Positions 6,761 through 26,240 of a stretch of DNA of 64,000 bases are shown here, piece after piece. The DNA lies in assembly GCA_012845835.1 (NCBI GenBank), contig JABAKD010000009.1, positions 4,626,904-4,690,903 of the forward strand. The letters run 5' to 3'. Every line of letters starts with the position of its first letter. Position 1 is the stretch's first letter. The notes beneath the pieces are model-generated. The model worked only from the letters and a program-made list of their open reading frames with translations. It did no database searches and had not been told where the DNA came from. Made by a program: the position numbers and the translations under genes. Source of the DNA: Undaria pinnatifida. Taxonomy: Eukaryota > Sar > Phaeophyceae > Laminariales > Alariaceae.

Positions 6761-7388
6761 CAAAGCCGAATCGAGAAAACGTACTAGTTACCTGATGAAA
6801 TATCCCATGGCCCACGTATGCACCTTATGTTTTTCCTATGAACTACTGTTGCGGCGGATTGACATGACGTCACATGAAATCCCGTGGCGAAATGCTGCCT
6901 AGGTCCGTATAACGCCGATCAGTCTAAAAAGCGTGCCGCTCACGGCCTCAGTACAAAAACACACAAAACCAAACGAGAGAAAAAGGAACCTGAACTTGAT
7001 CTGACACGAGCGTGAGTGACTGCGAACCGAGCCTGAGTACAGCGATCGTTACCGTGAGGCATTGTTGGAGGTTTAATCTGGAGATCTGTTATAGTGTACG
7101 AGCGCTTGGAAGAGGACTGCGTGAGACGAGACTGGTGTTTGCAGGCAGCTGTTGCAACAAGCAGACGGGAGGAATTAGCCTGAAGATAGACACCCGGAGG
7201 GGAAACGAACTAGAAGCGGTGAGAGAGTTGGGACAAGGGATTGGAGACTTGGGTACGTGTGTCTACAGTAGCTCTTTATCTTTTCGTTACATGGGGCTTC
7301 AGGTGGGATCCGTGTGGGTCGATTGTCTCGCTTGACGCAGGTAGAAGTACGGTCGTAAATGCGCAGGTAGAAGAGCAGCTGCATGTCG

Positions 7389-14479: not shown

Positions 14480-15986
14480 GTCGGCATTTTTTTGTTGTTG
14501 AAATAATGCAAAAAAAGAGTGTGGAAAAAAAGGAGTAGTCAAAAAATGAATGGATTTTACGGGATGTTGAAGAGAATTCCATGGCAGTTCAACTCTATAT
14601 TATCATGTTGAAAATCTCGCTCGTGTAACAAAATCTCGCTTGAAGCAGTATCACGAACCCCACACGCTGCATGATAACTATAGTCAAATACCGCCGAAAT
14701 AGAAGCAGCAGTACAGTAGGCCGTCATGAGAATCGATGGTCGTGATCTCTAGATAGTGGAGGCGAGGATTGAGACGCTTGATAGTTTATACATAATGAGG
14801 AGTGACGCAGTCCATGCTACGCACAGCAGTACATACAGAGAGCAAACGAGATTCTCCCCGCTTTGACTGACTCACTGTTTTTTTTTGTATGCGATGCAGA
14901 CGAAACATTGGTATGCATCAATGGTATGGATTGCTTCGCAAAGCATGCATTTTTTTGCTTTCGTGCTCGTACTCACTCTTGCGACGAGTACTTCTGCATT
15001 GTTGTACCAGGTACTCGTATGTATGCCATCGTGCTGTATACGTGCGTATCATATGTTTTGTATGTCGACTGTGATATGCTCTTGGTATTTTTTTTGTGCT
15101 GCACCAGTTTTGACACCAAACTGACCAGGTATACCTGATTTTGCTTAAAGAAAATGTTTTTGTTTGTTTGAGTATCAGTACGTACTCAATCGATAACGGA
15201 TGCATACAGCAAGCGATGGTACAATGCGATCTCACAACTAACTGGAGTGTATTCTAACTTTTACAATATCTGTAAACCAAAATATTAAAATTTTGAACTG
15301 GGAAAGAGATACATGCATCCCTGCCTGCTAGTAAGCCTCGCCTACATGCAAGTTGGGGCGGTATTATGTAGGCAGGATGGTGAGAAGGGAGTGACATGGA
15401 CTGTTGAGCCAGTAGCATAATGTAGTAATCATTTGCTCATACATATACCTACTACTGCCGTATATATGGTCAAAACAGTGTACGGTTGGGAGTATAGAGT
15501 TTGCGTCTACATGTAGACGTTATTATTAGGGATACTTCTGTTTGTTGTACCTTGTATTGTACAGAATAGTACACAGATTGTTCTTTATACTGCGCGATAT
15601 CGTAATCAATGGGCTGGGTTGTTATGGAAAAATATAGCAAGGAAGGGCTCACTAAGTTGTACAAAACGGTCAGAAGTAGATTAAGGAATACGAGACGAAC
15701 AAGGGGAAGGAGGATCATCATCGCTGATTACGAATAAGTTCGTACGTGGTCACTGAAGAAATGTGCTTACGTTCATTATACGGGTTGAAAATGTGTTCGG
15801 GTTGGTTAATTGATCTACACTTGTTGCACACTGTGAGACGACCACAAGACAGTTTTTTTTTTGCAGGCAATTTGGTTTTGGCCATTGTGATGGGGATTTC
15901 GCGACTTCGCAGGTTGTACAGGCACTGCAAGGTTGTTCTCACAAGTGTTTCAAGGGTAGTGATACTGCAAACTGGTTCTGATTTTT
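14480..15986. other. AT-rich intergenic DNA between the two retrotransposons
   Basis: No recognisable gene. Short overlapping ORFs up to 105 codons occur near 14.86-15.24 kb and 15.47-15.99 kb. They lack domains and are Cys- or Tyr-rich in a way that tracks base composition. Some of this may be the unseen 5' LTR of the gypsy element that follows. Confidence 0.4.
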
Positions 15987-16737: not shown

Positions 16738-18472
16738 CGGCGTCCCGGGAAGAGGGGGAGGCATGATTGGAGGAAATAATAAGGCAGGAAGAGGGGGACT
16801 TCTTTGGGGACCTTTTGGTGCACCTTACCCTAGAGGAGGCCGCCCACAGGGAGGCCCGTCACAGAGCGGCCTGGCTGGAGGCCCACCACAGGGCGGCCAG
16901 GTTGGTTGGGGTTCACAGGGAGGTGCAGGACAAGGGGCAGCAGGACCGGGAAATCCTGTAGAAGCGGAAGGCGGGTACAATAAAGATGTCCCCTCCCTCC
17001 TCACCGTCACCCTTCGGAATCGAAGAACAATGGGGTCCACAGGCAGCCCAAAGAGGAGCACCACCGAACCCTAGATCGCGATGGGGACCTCCGACGGCGC
17101 CAAGGCCGCCGCAGCAACAACAAGCAAGGTGTTTTGGCCAACAACAGCCAGCGTTCGCTGTCTAACAAAAGCCAGGGTTTGCTGGCCAACAACCGCCAGG
17201 GTTTGCTGGCCAACAACCGCCAGGGTTCGCTGGCCAGCAGAAGCCAGGGTTTGCTGGTCATCAGCAGCCAGGCTTCGCTGGCCAACAGCATCCAGGGTTC
17301 ATCGGACCAGCGGGAGCTCAGGGATGGCAAGTACCGTGGGGTGGTCAACCCATGATGCGGGGGTGGGGACCCCAGAGAGGACAACCTCTCTTCCCACTAG
17401 GAAGTGGTGGATTACAGATCGGACATTTTAATCCGTTATACGACATTACAGGAGGATCTTCAAAATAAGCCCAACGCATGGTCGACCGCTATGTCAAAGA
17501 AATGGGCCGTGGCAGCGCGGGTGGTTCTGCGACACAAGCGAGCAGCGATGGTCGACCCGAATCGACCATTCTTGGTAGAGGAGAATTTCTTTTGAAAGGT
17601 CCTGTAGGAAACGGATGCTAGCTTACCCGGTCGATATGGGAGAGCTTCTCGACCACACGATGGAGCTGAGGGGAAGAAAGGCGTGTTATATTTTTAACAA
17701 ATTTGTTGAGAAAACTAACATGCGAAGCAGCGACGTTAGCGACCCGAAGGTACCTGCCAAGTCGAAAGCTAGGGGCACGCAAGCCTCGGTTTGTGCATTT
17801 AGTGGTGCGTCAGGCAAACGGTCCTCGAGCAATGAGAGCCGCATGCGGGACATCGTCGGGGTCGGGCACATGCGTGGTTGACACAACTAAACCTCGGAAG
17901 GGCCTGAAACGCGCGCAGCGAGTTGGAGAGAAAAGCAGAATTCCCGGAAACGTAATGGGTCCTTGCCAAGTTATGAGGTGAGAGAACAGCGACCGAAGAT
18001 CGACATTGCCGCACTCGCATCGGAACCGTCGGATGAGGAGGACGTCGCCGACAGCAAAATATGAGATGAGTTTATGCAATGGTTGGCCGCGTATTCTACC
18101 CACCCAGCATCGTTGCCGGGGAAGGGAGGGACTCCTTTCGACCCCACCAGCACGTCGTCGAGACGGCAAGGAACCAAGCCACCCCAGACGACAACCTCAG
18201 CACCAAGGAGGTGGCAGAAAGAGGGTGACGAACGGCGAACAACGAAGGACCCTCTTCCTCTACCGCCCAACACTGCCGCAAAAGACGAAATTGAAGAAGC
18301 GCTAAGGAGTCGCAACATTTGTTTTTTCCACGCGCGAGGCCGGGCCTGTCCTTTTCACGAAACAGGACGTCGCTTCTCTCACGAAGAGGGAGATGCCGCC
18401 CACGGCTTCTATAGAAACACGGTACAGAGGGATATGCGGAACAGACCACAAACCAGACGTCGTACGACATGA
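16738..18472 (+). pseudogene. gypsy gag-like protein with low-complexity repeats and CCCH zinc finger
   Basis: Frames can be followed piecewise. First is a Gly/Pro/Gln/Arg-rich stretch (16,738-16,985; RGG and PQGG motifs). A second frame from ATG 16986 holds about eight PGFAGQQ-type repeats and has in-frame stops at 17163, 17466 and 17619. A third holds a unit near 17,625-17,880. The 18,074-18,472 frame contains CFFHARGRAC and GRRFSHEEGD. These fit a C-x8-C-x6-[C]-x3-H finger in which the third Cys is Arg (one transition from Cys). It would form virus-like particles and bind the element RNA. No standard gag capsid domain is recognised, so the gag label rests on position and the zinc finger. 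Confidence 0.55.
17126..17330 (+). repeat. 24-bp tandem repeat encoding PGFAGQQ units
   Basis: Seven to eight imperfect 24-bp units (ccagggtttgctggccaaca plus four bases), in frame with ATG 16986. They give eight-residue repeats P-G-F-A-G-Q-Q-x, with x being P, Q, K or H. One unit is damaged: GGC CAA has become GTC TAA, producing the stop at 17163. Confidence 0.85.
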
Positions 18473-18627
18473 TTGTTGCATATGATCTCGCTGGAAAAGG
18501 ACCGCCAACGCCGACAAACGACACAGACGATACGGCGAAATGAGGACACACCCCGGGAAGTCCAACATGTCCGGGGGAGCCAGTAGATAGGGAGAAGGCG
18601 ACTGAAAGTTCTTCTCACCAATGAGAA

Positions 18628-19253
18628 TTGGGAGCACTGCAAACTAAGACGTCACAGGTTTGGATTAATGGAAGTTGTGGCAGCCACAGTAGCCCTCGCC
18701 GGCGACTTCCGATCGCGGTGCTGGTGGATACTGGGGCGGGCGGGGGAAGCTACGTGTCGCGGCAGATCATCGAGTCCATCGAAGAAGGGGATTGTTGGGG
18801 AAAGTCGTTGAAAAATTCAACGGGAAAGGGCCTACTCAGCGCAGCAAACCCAAAAAACAGCGCCGTGCCCCCGATGGAAATGGTAGGCTCGTGCTTGCTG
18901 CCACTAGTCTTTGTACCGGTCGATCAAATCTTCCGTGTGAAGTTCAGGTTGGTGAAAGGACTTCCGTATACGATGGTGCTTGGAGCCGCGTTCATCATAG
19001 ATAATCGAAGCATCATCAGGTTTGATGGTGAGGAGGGTTTCCGGCCGACACCATCCTCATCGTGGGTACCATTCGCCCCAAGGAGGTCGGAGAGGTCGCG
19101 GCAGGAGCGATGTGTGCGGAATGGGACCACTATTGCGCGGTGGAACCGTGTACAGACGAGCAAGAACCGGAAAAATTGGAGGAACCGAAGATCCCGGCGG
19201 GGATTATGGAGTTAGGAAGCTCTATTTGGGAGGACGAAGGCACTCTGCACTGA
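18628..19253 (+). pseudogene. gypsy aspartic protease
   Basis: The 195-codon frame from 18628 has AVLVDTGAGGGSYVS, the retropepsin active-site D-T-G (D34), followed about 90 residues later by TMVLGAAFIIDN, the ILG-type flap-distal motif. It shifts frame near 19,060; the coding-like continuation is in the 19062-19253 frame, an acidic linker. The protease processes the polyprotein. It lies directly downstream of the gag finger and upstream of RT, as expected. Confidence 0.75.
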
Positions 19254-19352
19254 AAACTACGCATTGCGAAAGACGTAGCCGTTGAAGGTGGTACCAGTAT
19301 TCAGGTAGACCCTTATGTCAAAGGCCCTCAACCTCAAATACAGAAGCTCGTA

Positions 19353-19748
19353 ATGGTAGAACTAACTAACCGCTTTGATATTAAACTAGGAGTGGATCTA
19401 GGAGTGCCAAGGGGGGCACAGTGGTGGTTCCCGGGTATACCACTTCAATGTAAGTCGTCGAACGTTACCCAGGATAATGTGAAGATCCAGGGGGGACTGG
19501 TGATAGCGACGGTTTACGCTGTTAACAATTACGATCCGGAACGCATGAAATTACTCATGAACCCGGTATCGGAGGAACCGACAAGCCCCAAACAGGAGGA
19601 GGGGATCAAAAAGAAAGACGAAGGGAGACCACCGGAGCAATGCAACAAAGGGGGTGAAATCGCAGAGATTCCGAGCGAAGCCCCCAAGGTGGACCTGGGA
19701 GAGACCAACTTCGGACAGCTCAGTCCGCGAGTGAAAAGGACACATTGA
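19353..19748 (+). pseudogene. gypsy protease-RT connecting region
   Basis: A 131-codon frame beginning VELTNRFDIKLGVDLGV, with a charged C-terminal half (EEPTSPKQEEGIKKKDEG). No domain is recognised. It sits between protease and RT and overlaps the RT frame by 4 nt, consistent with a polyprotein linker split by an indel. Confidence 0.5.
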
Positions 19749-20400
19749 TGGACATTCTCAACAAGTACATCGACGTGTTCGCGGTCATCCCCATAAGCGT
19801 ACCAGCGTGCAGAGGAATGCCCATGCGACTGGAGCTCAAAGATCCCAACGTCAAGTCAAACGTGGCGCCCATTCGACACTACAGCCCGGAACAGCGCGAG
19901 ATGATTAAGACTGAAGTGGTGAAACTCCTGAAGATGGGATCCATTCGGGAATCAACTTCCGAGTGGGCCGCCAATTGTTCGACGGTTCGCAAGAAAAATG
20001 GGACAGTGCGGGTTGTGCAGGATTTTCGAGGTATCAATGCGCTTCTCAAATCACAGAGTGGTGGACTCGGGGACTTGCAGCATATTATGGATGAGATGGA
20101 ACGGTCGAAGTGTTTCTCCAGCATCAATTTAGCGTCAGGATTACTACAGCTCGAAATACATGAGGACAATCGAGAACTTACGGCGTTTCGAGAGGCTGAC
20201 GGGAAGCTGTACGAATACGTTTGCTGCGGCTTCGGGTTGAAGACAATGCCTTCGGCGTTTTGCCAACTACGTTGGAGGGCGACTTTTAACCGTCAAGGAT
20301 AGAGAAATCAAGAACTGGTTGGACGACATCGGCATCCCGTCGAAAACCCTTCAAGATCAATGGGGACTGCTGCTAGAAACGTTAGAGTGTCTACGGCAAG
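19745..20400 (+). pseudogene. gypsy reverse transcriptase
   Basis: The frame from 19745 holds canonical Ty3/gypsy RT blocks. These are IRHYSPEQREMIKTEVVKLL and GSIRES (fingers), VRKKNGTVRVVQDFRGIN, SSINLASGLLQLEIHED (first catalytic Asp replaced by Asn in SxINLxxG), and YEYVCCGFGLKTMPSAFCQL. A frameshift near 20,270 moves to a frame reading IKNWLDDIGIPS at about 20,310-20,345, the position of the Y(L/V)DD box with Tyr replaced by Trp. Two catalytic-motif changes plus frameshifts mean this copy is inactive. Confidence 0.88.
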
Positions 20401-20478
20401 GACGTTTGACCAAAAATCTTCGGTAATCGGATTTCTGTCAGTCGGCCATGGAGTTCGTCGGCACGATCGTGGATAGAC

Positions 20479-21150
20479 ATGGTACCAGGCCGGCCCCTGA
20501 GCAAGATTAATGCTATCACGCAGCTGTCAAGGCCAAACACGGTGGAGGAAGTGCGAGTGTTGCGGGGCATGACAGGGTACTTACGGCAACTCGTACCCCA
20601 GTATAGCACAATGGTGGCGCCTATTTCCGACGTGCTGAGAGATCCAAGGTTCAGAACCAAAAGAGCGAAGAAAGAAAAAGTCTCGTGGGGAGGAGAGCAA
20701 AACAAAGCTTTAAATGCGCTTATCGAAGCCTTGACGTCACCTCTAATCCTAGCCCTGCCGGTGTGGACAGAACCGTTCTCGCTGTCCACCGATGCCAGTG
20801 AGATGGGAGTAGGAGCGGTGCTAACACAATGCATCGAAGGAGTGGATCAGGTGATCGCGTACGGCAGCAAAAGGTGGTCGACAGGACACTCCAAAAGGTC
20901 AGCAACAGACCGTGAATGCATGGCGGTCATGTGGGCAGTGAGCAAATTCCAACTCTATCTTTGGGGTCGACCGTTCACGCTCATCACGGACTGATCAGCG
21001 TTGATTTGGCTCTTCAAATGCCAATCTCTCACACCGATATACCGTCGCTGGGCTCTGAGGTTGATGGAGCACGACATAACCTTGAAGTGGAGGCCGGGAC
21101 ACAACATCAGCTTCCAGACGCCATGTCGCGGTTACAGAAACAAGATCATC
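20479..21150 (+). pseudogene. gypsy RNase H
   Basis: The frame 20479-20994 has the RT thumb block (TVEEVRVLRGMTGYLRQLVP), then RNase H: STDASEMGVGAVLTQ (first Asp), IAYGSKRWSTGHSKRSATDRE (catalytic Glu in the ExE position) and LWGRPFTLITD. A TGA replaces the His codon expected after ITD. Coding-like sequence then continues with SALIWLF, YRRWALRLMEHD and WRPGHN. The expected DALSR ending survives in the next frame as DAMSRLQ near 21,120. Function: removal of template RNA and the polypurine primer. Confidence 0.88.
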
Positions 21151-21375
21151 GTCATCGAAGATTCCGACGACTTTTTACCAGGAGACAAGTCGTTGCCAAA
21201 CGTTTACAAAGGGCCACAGGGGCCAGTGCTCGACGGCGTACACCTCGAAACCTTAGGAGTGGCAGATGTGGACGGATCTAGTGCTCAACGTCTTACAGTA
21301 CTTGCAGCCGTCGCACTCACAGCCGCAGAACCATCAGAGGCAGATACTCAACAGGCCAAGCTTGTCATCGCACCG

Positions 21376-22173
21376 GAGCTTTCAGTGGTGGTCACGCTGG
21401 ACTGTGGGGGGGGAGGCAGCATCCTTGCATCAGAGGGATTGCTGACGGTCAGAGGAGCAGTAGGCCAGGACTGGAAAGCATTGAAATGCAACAGAGCACA
21501 CGGACCGGACAACATTGCGAAGCCACTTAGGGTGACAACAGGGTCGCAGGAATACCTAACCATGTTGAGAGAGGTGACACCAGACGTTGTGGTCGGTGAC
21601 GCCTGCAGGAGGTTTGGAGGGATACGAGAGAAGGAAGGAATATCCGGAGCGATCAGCTTAGCCCAAGCTGCCATCGCCTCAGACGCCGAGTTTTCGTACT
21701 CGAATGATTGGCAACCTTCTGCGAACGACGGAATGAAACGACGAGATTCTCCCCGTTTTGGAACGGGAGTCATACATCGTGGACAAAGCGGAGGTACAAG
21801 CGAGCCAAGTAGGGATTTGTGAAGGAGGAAACGGACATTTGTGGTAGGAATCAAGGAAGGCCTGGCCCCAAAAGGGAAGTTAGCCGTTTGAAAGCGGAGG
21901 TTGGAGCAGGTAAAGCGACAAGTTCAGGAAGTAGGGCGATTTCTGGGACGAAGAGGCGCATACTTTCTGAAGAGAGGTACTGGAGAGCGAGCTATTTATT
22001 CGTTCAGCGAACCCATCATCTCTTTGAACCGTGCTCACATCGTGGGGGAAAAACCAACCGAAGGGTATATCGCACACCCAGCGGATGCAGCACGCCCAGA
22101 AGAATTTGAAGAGTTGCACTTCAAAGACTATGCCAAATTCACCACAGGGCAGGAACAAAACGTGATCCCGTAG
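21376..22173 (+). pseudogene. Cytosine-5 DNA methyltransferase-like domain in gypsy element
   Basis: About 265 codons in three frame pieces. Piece 1 (frame from 21001): VVVTLDCGGGGSILASEG matches motif I (SAM binding), followed by GAVGQDWKALKCNRAH. TPDVVVGDACRRFGGI matches motif IV with the Cys at 21604-21606; the usual PPCQ is altered. A motif VI-like V-L-E remnant lies near 21,695. Piece 2 (21,743-21,825): ILPVLERESYIVDKAEVQAS matches the helix before motif VIII. Piece 3 (21,832-22,173): RTFVVGIKEG (motif VIII tail), RAIYSFSEPIISLNRAHI and DYAKFTTGQEQNVIP resemble motifs IX-X. The enzyme family transfers methyl groups to C5 of cytosine in DNA. LTR elements with such domains are known from dinoflagellates and a charophyte alga. 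This copy is damaged. Confidence 0.7.
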
Positions 22174-22623
22174 ATGGTCAGCATGAGCGCAGCAGGCAAA
22201 CGTCATCGCAGATTTCACGTCTCCTCCAATGCTATGAGCAGTATTAGTTGAACTAGCTGTTCAAGGCTTACTGGGGCAAAACCTGATACCAGAGGTCGAG
22301 GAACTGGAAGGATTGGCCTGCATGGTGTTTGAGGATTACCTCGCAGCGTCAAAAGCCTTTGAGGTGACAAGAACGGTCACGAGATCGCAAGCAAAATCCC
22401 TTTCCGGGAACCGGAGGTTGACTGGGAGGCAGAATCGACATTACCTGAGGAGGAGGAGATGGAGAATACATCGACGCAGACCATATCTATTACTGAACTA
22501 GAAGTGGAAGTTGATCGCCCACGCAAACGCAGAGGGCAGAGAGAGCCCATCTCGAGACCGGAACGGCAACGTGATCCATTGGCGTAATCACTAAAGGACA
22601 CCAGCAGCCGTTAAAGCGGATCA
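22174..22623 (+). other. gypsy spacer between methyltransferase and integrase
   Basis: Coding-like but fragmented. Short pieces such as LEGLACMVFEDYLAASKAFEV and an acidic run encoded near 22,440-22,480 can be read in different frames. No domain is recognised. It could be a linker or a further accessory domain. Confidence 0.35.
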
Positions 22624-23399
22624 GTGGAAGAGACCAAGACAACCCAGCAGTCAAAGCCATCCATGCTGGAAAGGGTGACAGCTATTCTCCAGGATTTGCC
22701 ACAGCTGATGCAGAGGCAGTGCAAAGATACGGTACTGGGCAAGATTGGTAAAGAACTCCAGGAAGCGGGAAACCGAGGAACAGGAGGTGGCGAATATGTG
22801 ATGGATGATAACGGCCTCTTGTAGGTAGCACCTCTGGAAAAGATCCTACGACTTGCAGTTCCCCAATCTCTCGTTCCAGGAATTATGGCGCTGGCGCACA
22901 GCACCTATGGGCATCCGGGGACGGCAAGAACTGCAGCCTTCATTAGTCATCGGTAGTGCTGGCCCACCCTCATTAAGGACGTTAGAGACTACGTCTTCTC
23001 GTGTGGGTGCAGATTCACAAGCGGTCAGCGAGTCAACGGATTACCATGTTACCGTTGAGGTTTCTACGACCCAGGGACGTACTGGAAGTCGACATCCAGC
23101 ACATGGGGGTGAAGTCAGACGCAGGCAACAAAGTTCTACTGGTGATAGTCGACAAAGGCGGCAAGTTCTTGTTCGCCTTACCATTCCCCACGAAAGAAGC
23201 AATCGGAGTAGCGAGGAAACTGCTCGAAGTGATGCTTACTTTTGGGCTACCGCTGTATGTTTGCAGTGATCCGGGATCCAAGTTCACGGCAAAGGTGATG
23301 CAACACTTATGTAAGTGGTTGAACGTGACCATCGCCTATAAGCCTGCCGACCATCCACGTGCACAGGGGACGGTGGAGAGTCTGGGGGGGTGGCTATAA
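22624..23399 (+). pseudogene. gypsy integrase, truncated
   Basis: The frame from 22624 (stops at 22822 and 22954) leads into the H2C2 zinc domain: LAHSTYGHPGTARTAA, then CWPTLIKDVRDYVFSCGC. The catalytic core continues in the 23001-23399 frame with D31 (LEVDIQHMG), D90 (CSDPGSKFT) and E126 (AQGTVESLGG), again D,D-35-E. It ends at WL-stop just after the Glu. The usual GPY/F or chromodomain tail is missing because the element is truncated at the G-run near 23,385. The enzyme inserts element cDNA into host DNA. Confidence 0.88.
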
Positions 23400-23640
23400 C
23401 AGTTTTTCTTCAAAATAATCGTGGCACGCGCCGCGATACAAGTGGCGCGCGTTTTGACCGAAACGGTTTATGAACGATGTGGCTCGTTAGCTCAAACTTC
23501 GTCTTGATTTTTATTTTTTTTGCAGTAGGGTTTGTTGCATAGTTAAAGGTCATGAAGAATTTTTATCTTTGAAAAGTTTGTTCCTCTCCAAGCAAAGTAA
23601 TGGGTGAGGTATAAAGCTCTTCAAGTCTGGAGGTTCAAAA
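23400..23640 (+). repeat. Repeat family R1, short copy
   Basis: It abuts the truncated gypsy integrase. It aligns with 41,570-41,790 through 'cacgcgccgcgat', 'tgcagtagggtt' and 'ggtataaagctcttcaagt' (variant spellings in the second copy). Function unknown. Confidence 0.55.
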
Positions 23641-26240
23641 CCCCTGTTATATAAATATAAATACACTCCAGCTGTGAGATCGAAAAATTGGTCAAAACTT
23701 ATTGTTGCAAGCTGTGCGGTATACTCCGATCGCGCGCATTACGGGTTGTGTGTCCTTACTGAGGATATATGTCGGAGGCTTCCCTTGCAACTACAGTGTA
23801 GATATCAGGGTCAACAGGGTGATGTTCGTCAGTCTGTGCGCGGAAACAATAAAGCCCGTTTTTGAGGGAGACAAAATCTGGCAGCTGTGGAAGGAAGTGC
23901 ATCAGTTTATCAAGTGAATACTCTAAGTCGTACAATCGGTGAAGGGAGGGCGGAGTATTTAAGGACGTGGGGGCCTGGTTAAGATCAAAGGGAGTGGAAG
24001 GAGGGGGAAGAAAGTGGGAGGGATGGACGGGGCAGCTCAATTTGTGCGTGGAAACAATAAATCCTTTAAAGAGATAAATCTGACGATTTTCGACGAATGC
24101 ACCAGTTAATTATGAGGGGGGGAGGGGCGGGACGGGCGGCACAGCTCAATCTGTTTGTGGACACTATACATTCTATATCCTGTAAGTCGTACAACCAATG
24201 AGTACAGCGCGGAGTGTTCAAGGGGGTGGGGGTGGGGTGGGGGGCAGGGGGGGGGGTGGCGAAGGTGGGGAGAAGGAGGGTGGGGGTGCTGGGTCTATGC
24301 GACAGTGCGGGGGGTGAGGAAGGAGGGGACGTTGGGGGCGGGGGGGGGGGGGGGGGGGGGATGAATTGCCGAACCGGCATGGGTGATTCTTCAAAGATAA
24401 CGAGGCAATATCCAGTGCGTGGAAGTGTTTGTTACTCTAGCGAAATTGGATAATAGGTAGGGCATTTGAGCAAGAGAGAGCAGGACAAGATATAGAAAAC
24501 GGGGGGGGGGGGGAATGGTTCTCAAGAAGTTTAGGTCACAAAAATATAAAAATGCTCCAGCTGTGATTTCGAAGATTCAACTCATCTTTGCAAGATTGTG
24601 TGTGATTCTCCGGTCGCGCGTATTAATGATATATGTGGGAGTTTGCTAAATGCGTTGCATGTCAGGTCTAGGCCATCGTGCGGGTGGTGGACAAGGATGG
24701 GGCGTTGGAAGGGGAAAAATGAGTATAAGCTACGTCATGGATGGTTAGAAAGACAATGACGTGATATTATTTGCGTAGGAGTGTTTATTACTGTGGCCGA
24801 CTTCGATTGAAAGTGCGGCGTTCAAACAAGAAGGCTGGGACAAAAAATAATGAGGGAGGGAAGGGGGAGGGGGGGGGGGGGGGGGGAGAAAGGCGGATAT
24901 GAGTTGGAGCTACGGCATGGATAGCTAGAAAGAAACTAATGCGACAAACGCTGGCTGGTAGAGTTTACTACTCTGGTAGAGTTTCATTTTAGGTGGGGCG
25001 TTTGAAGTAGAGTGATCGGGGGGGGGAGGGGGGCTGGCGGGCGGGACATTTCAAACTGTGCGCAAAAACTATAAATAGACGAATCTAACGGTTGTAGCAA
25101 GAAGAATCCATTTATGCCACCTGCCTGGTATTGTATATTTTTCTAGAAGATTTGGTGTTATATGTGGTATGTAACCCAGTCTTTAGGTATGGTAAACAAC
25201 GTGTTGAAGCTTCATAATTTGTTTTCGTACATGGATCGCATAATGGAATAATTAAATCGATAGGTACAACCATGTAGTTTATAATTTTTTCTGACATCGC
25301 TAATTATAAGAAAGAGATACATATAGCCAAGTACCACAGGCGAGATGATGTGGTCATGCAATTGGCAGATACCACAAGCGGGGCGATGTAGTCATGCAAT
25401 GTCCCCGGCATTGAGCACGAGAAGGAGAAGTGCGAATCGTCAGTGTTTTGGACGGAATGCGTGGTGTACCACCGCTCAAATGCGTTACTACATTATTCTT
25501 TTTTCGCTTGGCATAGGTTGGGAGGCGATCATGCAGACGGTAAGAACAAATACTCTACTAAGTACGTTGACAGTGTGGTCTACCGCAATTACAACATATA
25601 TAATCTGCCTGTGCTTTTTTTTTACAGTACTATATTGTCTCGAATGTTCGATTTTAATACCATGGTTTTAACGGGCCGATGTCGGACTCTAGGGTCGCCA
25701 ATTCCAAGACAGAGATACATTCCACGAATACAGCAATCGAGGTGACGTGGGCATTCGATGTCACCACTATTAAACGCGAGGGTGACTGTACTTTGTTAGG
25801 AATATGCTACTGCGTTTGGCAGAGGTTGTCAGACGACAATGCAAACGGCCGGTCGGCACGAAATACCCTGCGTAGTTATTTGATAGTGTGGACTACCGCA
25901 GTGTTAACATATACTTTTGTGCTTTTTCTTCACATTATTATTATTTAGTGTGCGATTATACGCTATGTTGTCTCCCTACTGTCGTCGAACGTGTTGTGGT
26001 CCTGTACTTGTCGCGTCCGTGTCTGGTGATCTTGTTAGTGGTGCTCATGAGAACATGTCCTAGCGTGTACTATATGATCGCTGAGTGGTGTTCCTTTCCT
26101 TTACATCAAGCCAGGTAGTGTATGTCAACGCAACCGGTTGCATAAAAAAGACAAAAAAAAAATCCTCACACTCGACCCAAGGAGACGTGGTCCAAACAAT
26201 AAAGACTATATTGTCTAGTGCACTTCAACCGTGTTTCGCA
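23640..26240 (+). repeat. G-tract repeat arm, plus orientation
   Basis: A decayed repeat about 2.6 kb long. The outer half (23.64-25.1 kb) is several diverged units of about 150-250 bp. Each combines 'gcgtggaaactataaatcc'-like sequence, a 'gtaagtcgtacaaccgatgag' block and a guanine-rich tail including runs of 21 (24340-24360) and 18 G (24869-24886). The inner half (25.11-26.24 kb) has a pair of ~310-bp spaced related blocks. The whole is an inverted counterpart of 27.64-29.17 kb and 32.15-35.45 kb. Confidence 0.65.

Follow-up and report, generated by a model that had tools for sequence, protein, structure and literature searches.

A strongly diverged cytosine-5 methyltransferase domain between RNase H and integrase of a multicopy Ty3/gypsy element in the brown alga Undaria pinnatifida

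We analyzed a stretch of 64,000 nucleotides of the kelp Undaria pinnatifida (C61:4626904-4690903, contig JABAKD010000009.1; hereafter the window) that contains, on its forward strand, the remains of a Ty3/gypsy retrotransposon with a domain resembling cytosine-5 DNA methyltransferases (C5-MTases). Between RNase H and integrase of this element we found a C5-MTase domain that is complete although strongly diverged, and it is very probable that the domain derives from C5-MTases and is a maintained part of Pol in a multicopy Ty3/gypsy element of this species. The genome that we searched comprises 511,146,479 bases in 68 contigs; the Undaria pinnatifida assembly is described as 511,280,173 bases in 114 scaffolds, with 30 chromosomes and a GC content of 50.14% (PMC7058681).

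Homology to cytosine-5 methyltransferases

To score the domain against the C5-MTase family PF00145, we searched the whole genome and found that 12 element copies exceed the gathering score (22 bits), one of them only together with its neighbours, at genome-wide E values of 0.003-0.022. When PF00145 was compared to alignment A2, 8 of the 11 members matched at E<=10 (best E 1.1e-4). P0021 (21.8 bits), P0033 and P0035 missed the cut-off. In a search of NCBIfam, dcm was the best match for 4 of 7 proteins, each with a score far under the cut-off of that family. In a profile-profile comparison, the score against known C5-MTases was 37.6, as compared to a maximum of 23.5 in 200 column permutations, and the result was repeated with a second reference set, where the score was above all 100 column-permuted controls. 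The catalytic residues align with those of C5-MTases without guidance. With C5-MTase rows added to the input (24 of 38 rows), AlphaFold 2 (AF2) gave a model with a predicted template modelling score (pTM) of 0.70 and a mean predicted local distance difference test (pLDDT) of 61.6, in which 120 of 331 residues fell below 50; the structure matches of this model were C5-MTases. An initial annotation, made from the letters of the window, had called the domain C5-MTase-like, and this identity is upheld, since relatives match PF00145 and the profile-profile score exceeds every permuted control.

Searches of protein collections returned relatives of the element. With the window frame as query against 5.8 billion proteins, 32 proteins matched at E<=0.001, one of which (P0031) is 41% identical and matches via the RNase H side. 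When the same proteins were searched with the domain profile, 7997 candidates were scored and at least 47 matched at E<=1, each 53-100% identical to the copy L025 over the matched part; thus, there is no canonical methyltransferase among the matches listed. Residues 640-970 of the long frame, used as a protein query, matched none of 6743 candidates at E<=0.001, and P0021 or A2, used as sequence queries against the PDB, gave no relevant match. Viral contigs contained 37 pattern matches to possible relatives, none of which was confirmed.

Catalytic residues and the ACR box

In the window copy, the domain is frameshifted and ends slightly beyond the position 22173 given in the initial annotation. 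The motifs named there are present on the + strand and in the right order, spread over three frames, and we located motifs I to X as follows:

~21361..22240 (+): C5-MTase-derived domain, homologous to P0033 residues 646-965 (tblastn)
21397..21426 (+): motif I, LDCGGGGSIL, with the GxGG glycines kept when compared to 10 C5-MTases
21457..21474 (+): motif II
21583..21615 (+): motif IV, DVVVGDACRRF, holding the Cys at the catalytic position, aligned with the Cys of PCQ
21690..21704 (+): motif VI, VFVLE, with the Glu at the catalytic position, in a shifted frame
21746..21814 (+): approach to motif VIII
21823..21861 (+): motif VIII, with RxR
21892..22047 (+): target-recognition part
22066..22140 (+): motif IX (alignment A4)
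22202..22234 (+): motif X, VIADFTSPPML, in another frame (alignment A4)

Across the family, the predicted cytosine-activating residues (Cys, Glu and Arg-x-Arg) are kept, and several residues on the cofactor side and in structural positions are changed. The motif IV Cys is present in 11 of 11 family rows of A4 and in 19 of 20 genomic copies, the motif VI Glu in 22 of 23 copies, and the two Arg of motif VIII in 23 and 22 of 24 copies. The glycines of motif I are also kept. The usual context of the motif IV Cys in C5-MTases is PC(Q/N), and this context is not found in the family: Ala precedes the Cys in 18 of 20 copies and Arg follows it in 18 of 20, and Pro stands there in none of the 11 rows. 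In addition, the N and V of ENV are replaced (ENV to ECL), as is the Q of PQ (PQ.R.R to PWRRKR); GN of motif X has become AD, and the Asp of motif III is lost.

The initial annotation had taken the altered PPCQ box for damage to the window copy. We reject decay of this copy as the cause, as ACR is the usual sequence of the family and also occurs in L048, the one copy of a related gypsy element, in which the motif reads GHACRS. Since ACR is found in nearly all copies and in L048, it seems to be older than the split between the two. The methyltransferase domain of L048 is 41% identical over 163 residues, and reverse transcriptase (RT) and RNase H lie upstream of it in the same order as in the window family. 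At L048, L087 and L088 (C26:6864800-6869500), the domain of the related gypsy element is followed by a proline-rich linker.

Host element and intact relatives

A genome search with the first half of the domain, in which 150 of 284 candidates were scored, gave at least 152 matches, a number that is not a copy count because some copies match twice. We examined 20 loci of ~3.4 kb, 20 longer stretches of 9.9 kb each and ten additional short ones. Uninterrupted copies with the order RT, RNase H, methyltransferase and integrase, which the initial annotation had proposed to look for, do exist: in L025, a natural uninterrupted frame of 1694 codons encodes RVT_1, RNase H, the methyltransferase domain, H2C2 and rve, with a tail that is weakly Tudor-like. 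The annotated host type is likewise confirmed, as P0033 has the Ty3/gypsy order of RT, RNase H, H2C2 and DDE integrase in Pfam. At residues 1654-1680 of P0033, the C terminus of the integrase-side frame, there is a weak Tudor-like match (PF21743, E 0.0028, under the cut-off), possibly a chromatin-reading tail.

Among the 20 stretches of 9.9 kb, one pair of long terminal repeats (LTRs) was found, in L033 (1048-1480 and 8405-8848; 444 columns with 3 mismatches and 11 gap positions). The near-identity of these LTRs indicates recent movement of the family. The gag side is missing from L033, and no exact target-site duplication was found at this locus. In L024, L025, L033, L038 and L040, a single stop codon lies between two long frames in the same reading frame. 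Three near-identical copies lie ~25 kb apart on C22 near 388, 413 and 438 kb (L028, L027 and L044), apparently as a duplicated array.

Selection on the domain

To measure constraint, we left out six entries (L003, L017, L028, L034, L035 and L044) that are duplicates, the window's own pair included. We compared variants present in at least two copies with variants present in one copy, a test that separates change during multiplication of the element from decay after insertion. In the methyltransferase domain (24 copies), shared variants comprised 39 nonsynonymous (N) and 48 synonymous (S) changes as compared to 242 and 121 among singletons (p 1.5e-4), and no stop codon within the domain is shared among the copies compared. 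Thus, purifying selection has kept the domain as the element multiplied. Both this test and the pooled ratio of nonsynonymous to synonymous polymorphism (pN/pS) in open copies are given for each part of Pol:

RT: pN/pS 0.35 (11 copies); shared 16 N/28 S, singleton 108/47, p 7.2e-5
RNase H: pN/pS 0.44 (17 copies); shared 25/19, singleton 122/49, p 0.050
Methyltransferase: pN/pS 0.53 (11 copies); shared and singleton counts as above
Methyltransferase, motif I-VIII half: pN/pS 0.69; shared 28/26, singleton 123/67, p 0.060
Methyltransferase, target recognition to motif X: pN/pS 0.39; shared 11/22, singleton 119/54, p 1.5e-4
Linker: pN/pS 0.51 (16 copies); shared 21/21, singleton 110/42, p 0.006
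Integrase: pN/pS 0.47 (12 copies); shared 10/17, singleton 109/58, p 0.005
C-terminal part: pN/pS 0.47 (6 copies)

For the half that holds the catalytic motifs, the evidence of constraint is only suggestive.

Methylation footprint

To look for a trace of methylation, we used the 20 long stretches minus L028 and L034. Among these 18 copies, C/T differences per site were 0.066 at CG, 0.050 at CA, 0.071 at CT and 0.070 at CC, values computed over copy pairs that are not independent. The CpG observed/expected ratio was 1.00 in the window, 0.95 in the window's element and 0.91-0.94 in four 9.9-kb stretches bearing copies. As C/T differences are no commoner at CpG than at CT or CC and the ratio is near 1, these copies carry no sign of heritable CpG methylation, and heritable CpG self-methylation is unsupported. 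The initial annotation had read the domain as a sign that element copies are methylated by their own product. Its view of the domain's identity, host element, position and decay stands, whereas self-methylation of the copies lacks support, given the missing CpG footprint and a lineage reported to be without DNMTs except DNMT2; transient methylation of cDNA or RNA may still take place.

Weighing the readings

Several results count against a C5-MTase-derived and maintained domain. Single-copy PF00145 scores lie around the Pfam cut-off, and the NCBIfam scores are far below theirs. The PF00145 search that the initial annotation had suggested matched none of the three open frames over the domain in the window (0 of 3), which taken literally speaks against the annotated identity, although relatives do match and the 12 copies mentioned above pass the gathering score. 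AF2 on family rows alone reached a pLDDT of 33, and because the C5-MTase rows were supplied by us, the better model leans on them. In L048, Gln replaces the motif VI Glu and Met replaces the second Arg of motif VIII; the copy has no PF00145 match, and its sole Pfam match is unrelated and sub-threshold. As this copy contains a stop codon, we draw little from its Gln and Met changes. The pN/pS of the methyltransferase domain is above that of RT and near that of the linker, indicating weaker constraint; the shared-versus-singleton contrast in the motif I-VIII half has a p value of 0.060, and the weaker constraint on this half speaks for loss of catalysis. The copies examined for C/T differences and CpG ratios also show no footprint of CpG methylation.

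We give an even chance, judging from the sequences, to a pseudoenzyme, that is, a C5-MTase scaffold without methyl transfer that would be retained because it binds nucleic acid within the integration complex. Other gypsy integrases have extra tethering domains, and these are comparable in place to such a module. The part from target recognition to motif X is more constrained than the motif I-VIII half (pN/pS 0.39 vs 0.69; p 1.5e-4 vs 0.060), the cofactor-side motifs are altered and the copies carry no methylation footprint, all of which fits a pseudoenzyme. However, the four cytosine-activating residues are kept in most copies, and drift after a loss of catalysis would tend to erase them; the contrast between the halves comes from 11 open copies and a total of 24 copies.

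An active, self-methylating element has a somewhat less than even chance of being correct. Its domain would methylate the element's own cDNA, masking it from host sensors or steering chromatin at the insertion site. Retention of Cys, Glu and RxR in nearly all copies and a single frame shared with RT and integrase are consistent with such an enzyme, and there is a precedent in the SymbioDIRS-Dnmt3 domains, which can methylate CG de novo (PMC5890265). The change of PCQ to ACR, the loss of the motif III Asp and the motif X Asn, the weaker constraint on the catalytic half and the copies without a CpG footprint argue against it. In addition, brown algae are reported to be without DNMTs except DNMT2, so that the mark would not be maintained. 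It is doubtful that a retroelement-specific cytosine methyltransferase with an ACR nucleophile box would be active in brown algae and transiently modify reverse-transcription products.

It is improbable that the domain is a dead passenger, captured without use and merely carried. Its pN/pS (0.53) is close to that of the linker (0.51), as a passenger would have it, but the difference between shared and singleton variants (p 1.5e-4), the lack of a shared stop codon in the domain, the 11 copies that remain open after removal of duplicates and the presence of the domain in the 41%-identical relative all speak for its upkeep. A linker between RNase H and integrase that resembles a methyltransferase by chance, which the sub-threshold single-copy scores and the missing PF00145 match in L048, the sole copy of the relative, might suggest, is highly improbable and was rejected, because the permutation controls (200 and 100) were all exceeded, 12 genomic copies are above the curated cut-off, the catalytic residues align unguided and the fold matches, with the reservation on the added C5-MTase rows.

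For the C5-MTase-derived domain in Pol, we propose that it may have been captured once, before the split of the window family and the 41%-identical relative. It would be released from, or act within, the Pol complex in cis, and its target would be nucleic acid of the element itself, either while reverse transcription proceeds or shortly afterwards. One option is transient methylation of cytosines in the cDNA (or RNA) that would leave no heritable mark; in the other, catalysis would have been lost and the domain would bind nucleic acid or have an architectural role in the integration complex.

Comparison with known retrotransposon methyltransferases

Retroelements with cytosine methyltransferases are known from Symbiodinium and from the charophyte Klebsormidium, in the latter within a Gypsy Pol (PMC5890265), which agrees with the initial annotation. 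KnitGypsy-Dnmt3 of Klebsormidium nitens, a Gypsy element of the LTR type, exists in several copies and encodes within its Pol frame a DNMT domain that is under purifying selection (PMC5890265), and the kelp element is like it in being a multicopy Gypsy element with the domain in the Pol frame and under purifying selection. KnitGypsy-Dnmt3 belongs to a Dnmt3-related clade, its key residues are described as conserved and its host has a plant-like methylome (PMC5890265). In contrast, the kelp element has the ACR, ECL and W substitutions, PF00145 scores around the cut-off and a host lineage reported to be without DNMTs except DNMT2. Of the key residues, Cys, Glu and RxR are kept in the kelp domain and PCQ, ENV and motif X are changed.

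SymbioDIRS-Dnmt3 and SymbioLINE-Dnmt of Symbiodinium are also retrotransposons with a cytosine methyltransferase, and the SymbioDIRS domain lies in the RT frame; they differ from the kelp element in that SymbioDIRS is a DIRS element with a tyrosine recombinase and SymbioLINE a long interspersed nuclear element (LINE), and in that their key residues are described as conserved (PMC5890265). SymbioDIRS domains methylate CG and the tested SymbioLINE domain did not do so in yeast; methylation of their own cDNA has been proposed for the Symbiodinium DNMT retrotransposons (PMC5890265). DIRS elements with Dam-like adenine methyltransferases also encode a DNA methylase, but one that is adenine-type and structurally unrelated (PMC5890265, PMC6338049). 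One review supposes an antiviral role of transposon methylases and lists stramenopiles among the groups with Dam- or DCM-encoding retrotransposons, with brown algae unnamed there (PMC6338049). M.HhaI, Dcm, DNMT1 and DNMT2 share with the kelp domain the motif order I, II, IV, VI, VIII, IX and X, the Cys, Glu and Arg-x-Arg residues and, as far as the model goes, the predicted fold; the kelp domain is unlike them in ACR, ECL and PWRRKR and in the changed motif III Asp and motif X GN.

The kelp element is thus of the same kind as the known DNMT retrotransposons, with a far more diverged domain and in another host group. It appears to be another case in which a retroelement captured a DNMT independently, in a stramenopile, where independence is judged from element type and divergence. 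In the literature that we covered, mostly papers outside subscription and without the 2024 brown-algal genome paper, we found no description of a methyltransferase retrotransposon in brown algae.

Brown algae, Undaria included, are reported to have no DNMT except DNMT2, based on a blastp and orthology screen and a PF00145 gene tree (PMC13076208), and an older review makes the same DNMT2-only statement for Ectocarpus (PMC3145265). DNMT1 orthologues are mentioned for early-branching brown algae (PMC12344493), which speaks against a clean loss within the lineage. In Saccharina, 1.4% 5-methylcytosine (5mC) was ascribed to DNMT2 as the only DNMT present (PMC6916402). A multicopy domain of C5-MTase type that scores near or below the usual cut-offs bears both on the claim of DNMT loss and on the 5mC of Saccharina ascribed to DNMT2. 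A host without maintenance methylation also lets one ask what use the domain has to the element itself, apart from host silencing. If an active ACR enzyme were confirmed, the mobile elements of kelps would harbour a cytosine-modifying enzyme in a genome unable to maintain the mark.

The window copy and its surroundings

The window copy is a dead, truncated and duplicated relic. Decay, as initially annotated, is borne out by frameshifts, stops and an end inside the integrase at 23396, and window positions 21139-23076 are 66% identical to an uninterrupted relative. Pfam likewise places the domain between RNase H and the integrase core, as had been annotated. Regarding the supposedly damaged RT motifs, the WLDD box is also found in other family members and so is no damage of this copy, whereas the change of IDLASG to INLASG in the window is real. 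A nested Ty1/copia-like element on the - strand interrupts the 5' part of the copy. Beyond the domain, the features are:

6846..7388 (+): 5' LTR of the methyltransferase element (or a solo LTR of the family) with ~100 bp of leader, 91-94% identical to LTRs of L033, L024 and L025
8440..13293 (-): nested Ty1/copia-like element, not part of the methyltransferase element, between the LTR and leader matches, with long open frames
14490..14709 (+): 5' leader piece of the methyltransferase element, 86% identical to L033:1583-1801, shortly after the 5' LTR of L033
15539..17620 (+): putative gag-side region, matching the upstream regions of L025 and L024 at 78-90%
18625..19215 (+): protease region with VDTGAGG, an open frame without a Pfam match, homologous to frame P0034 in L025
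19422..20504 (+): reverse transcriptase, disrupted and spread across several frames (P0033 aligns by tblastn in frames 3, 2, 3; RVT_1 E 0.0016 at 19658-20302)
20410..20994 (+): RNase H (RT_RNaseH_2 E 1.3e-27, RT_RNaseH E 7.8e-22)
22857..23396 (+): integrase, H2C2 region and DDE core, cut at 23396 (rve E 4.3e-8 at 22986-23399; tblastn of P0033; H2C2 in intact relatives)
17345..24927 (+): duplicated segment, flank past the truncation included, 98.2% identical over 7584 columns to L034 at C61 ~2.07 Mb

Because the flank lies inside the 98.2% match, the segment was duplicated after the truncation. We take VDTGAGG to be an aspartic-protease motif. The frames of the nested element are presumably those of a Ty1/copia-like element, an assignment made from motifs of Gag with a zinc knuckle, integrase, RT and RNase H and without a family search.

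Elsewhere in the genome, PF00145 matched 35 places in all. One of these, at C31:7037420, is over the cut-off and has no partner among the first-half matches listed. The strongest places, L042 and L043 (C33:9582800-9585600 and 9593800-9595800; 65.8 and 34.1 bits), are broken C5-MTase pieces ~11 kb apart, separate from the element, in which a motif X of the GNSV/GNAI type is kept; they resemble what is left of an insertion of viral or other foreign origin and do not look like DNMT2. None of the 35 places was recognisable as a host DNMT2, in a six-frame search that may miss short exons. Beside the truncated end of the window's element, at 24200-25080, there are long G runs on the + strand of up to 21, and the GC skew is 0.34 in window positions 24001-26000.
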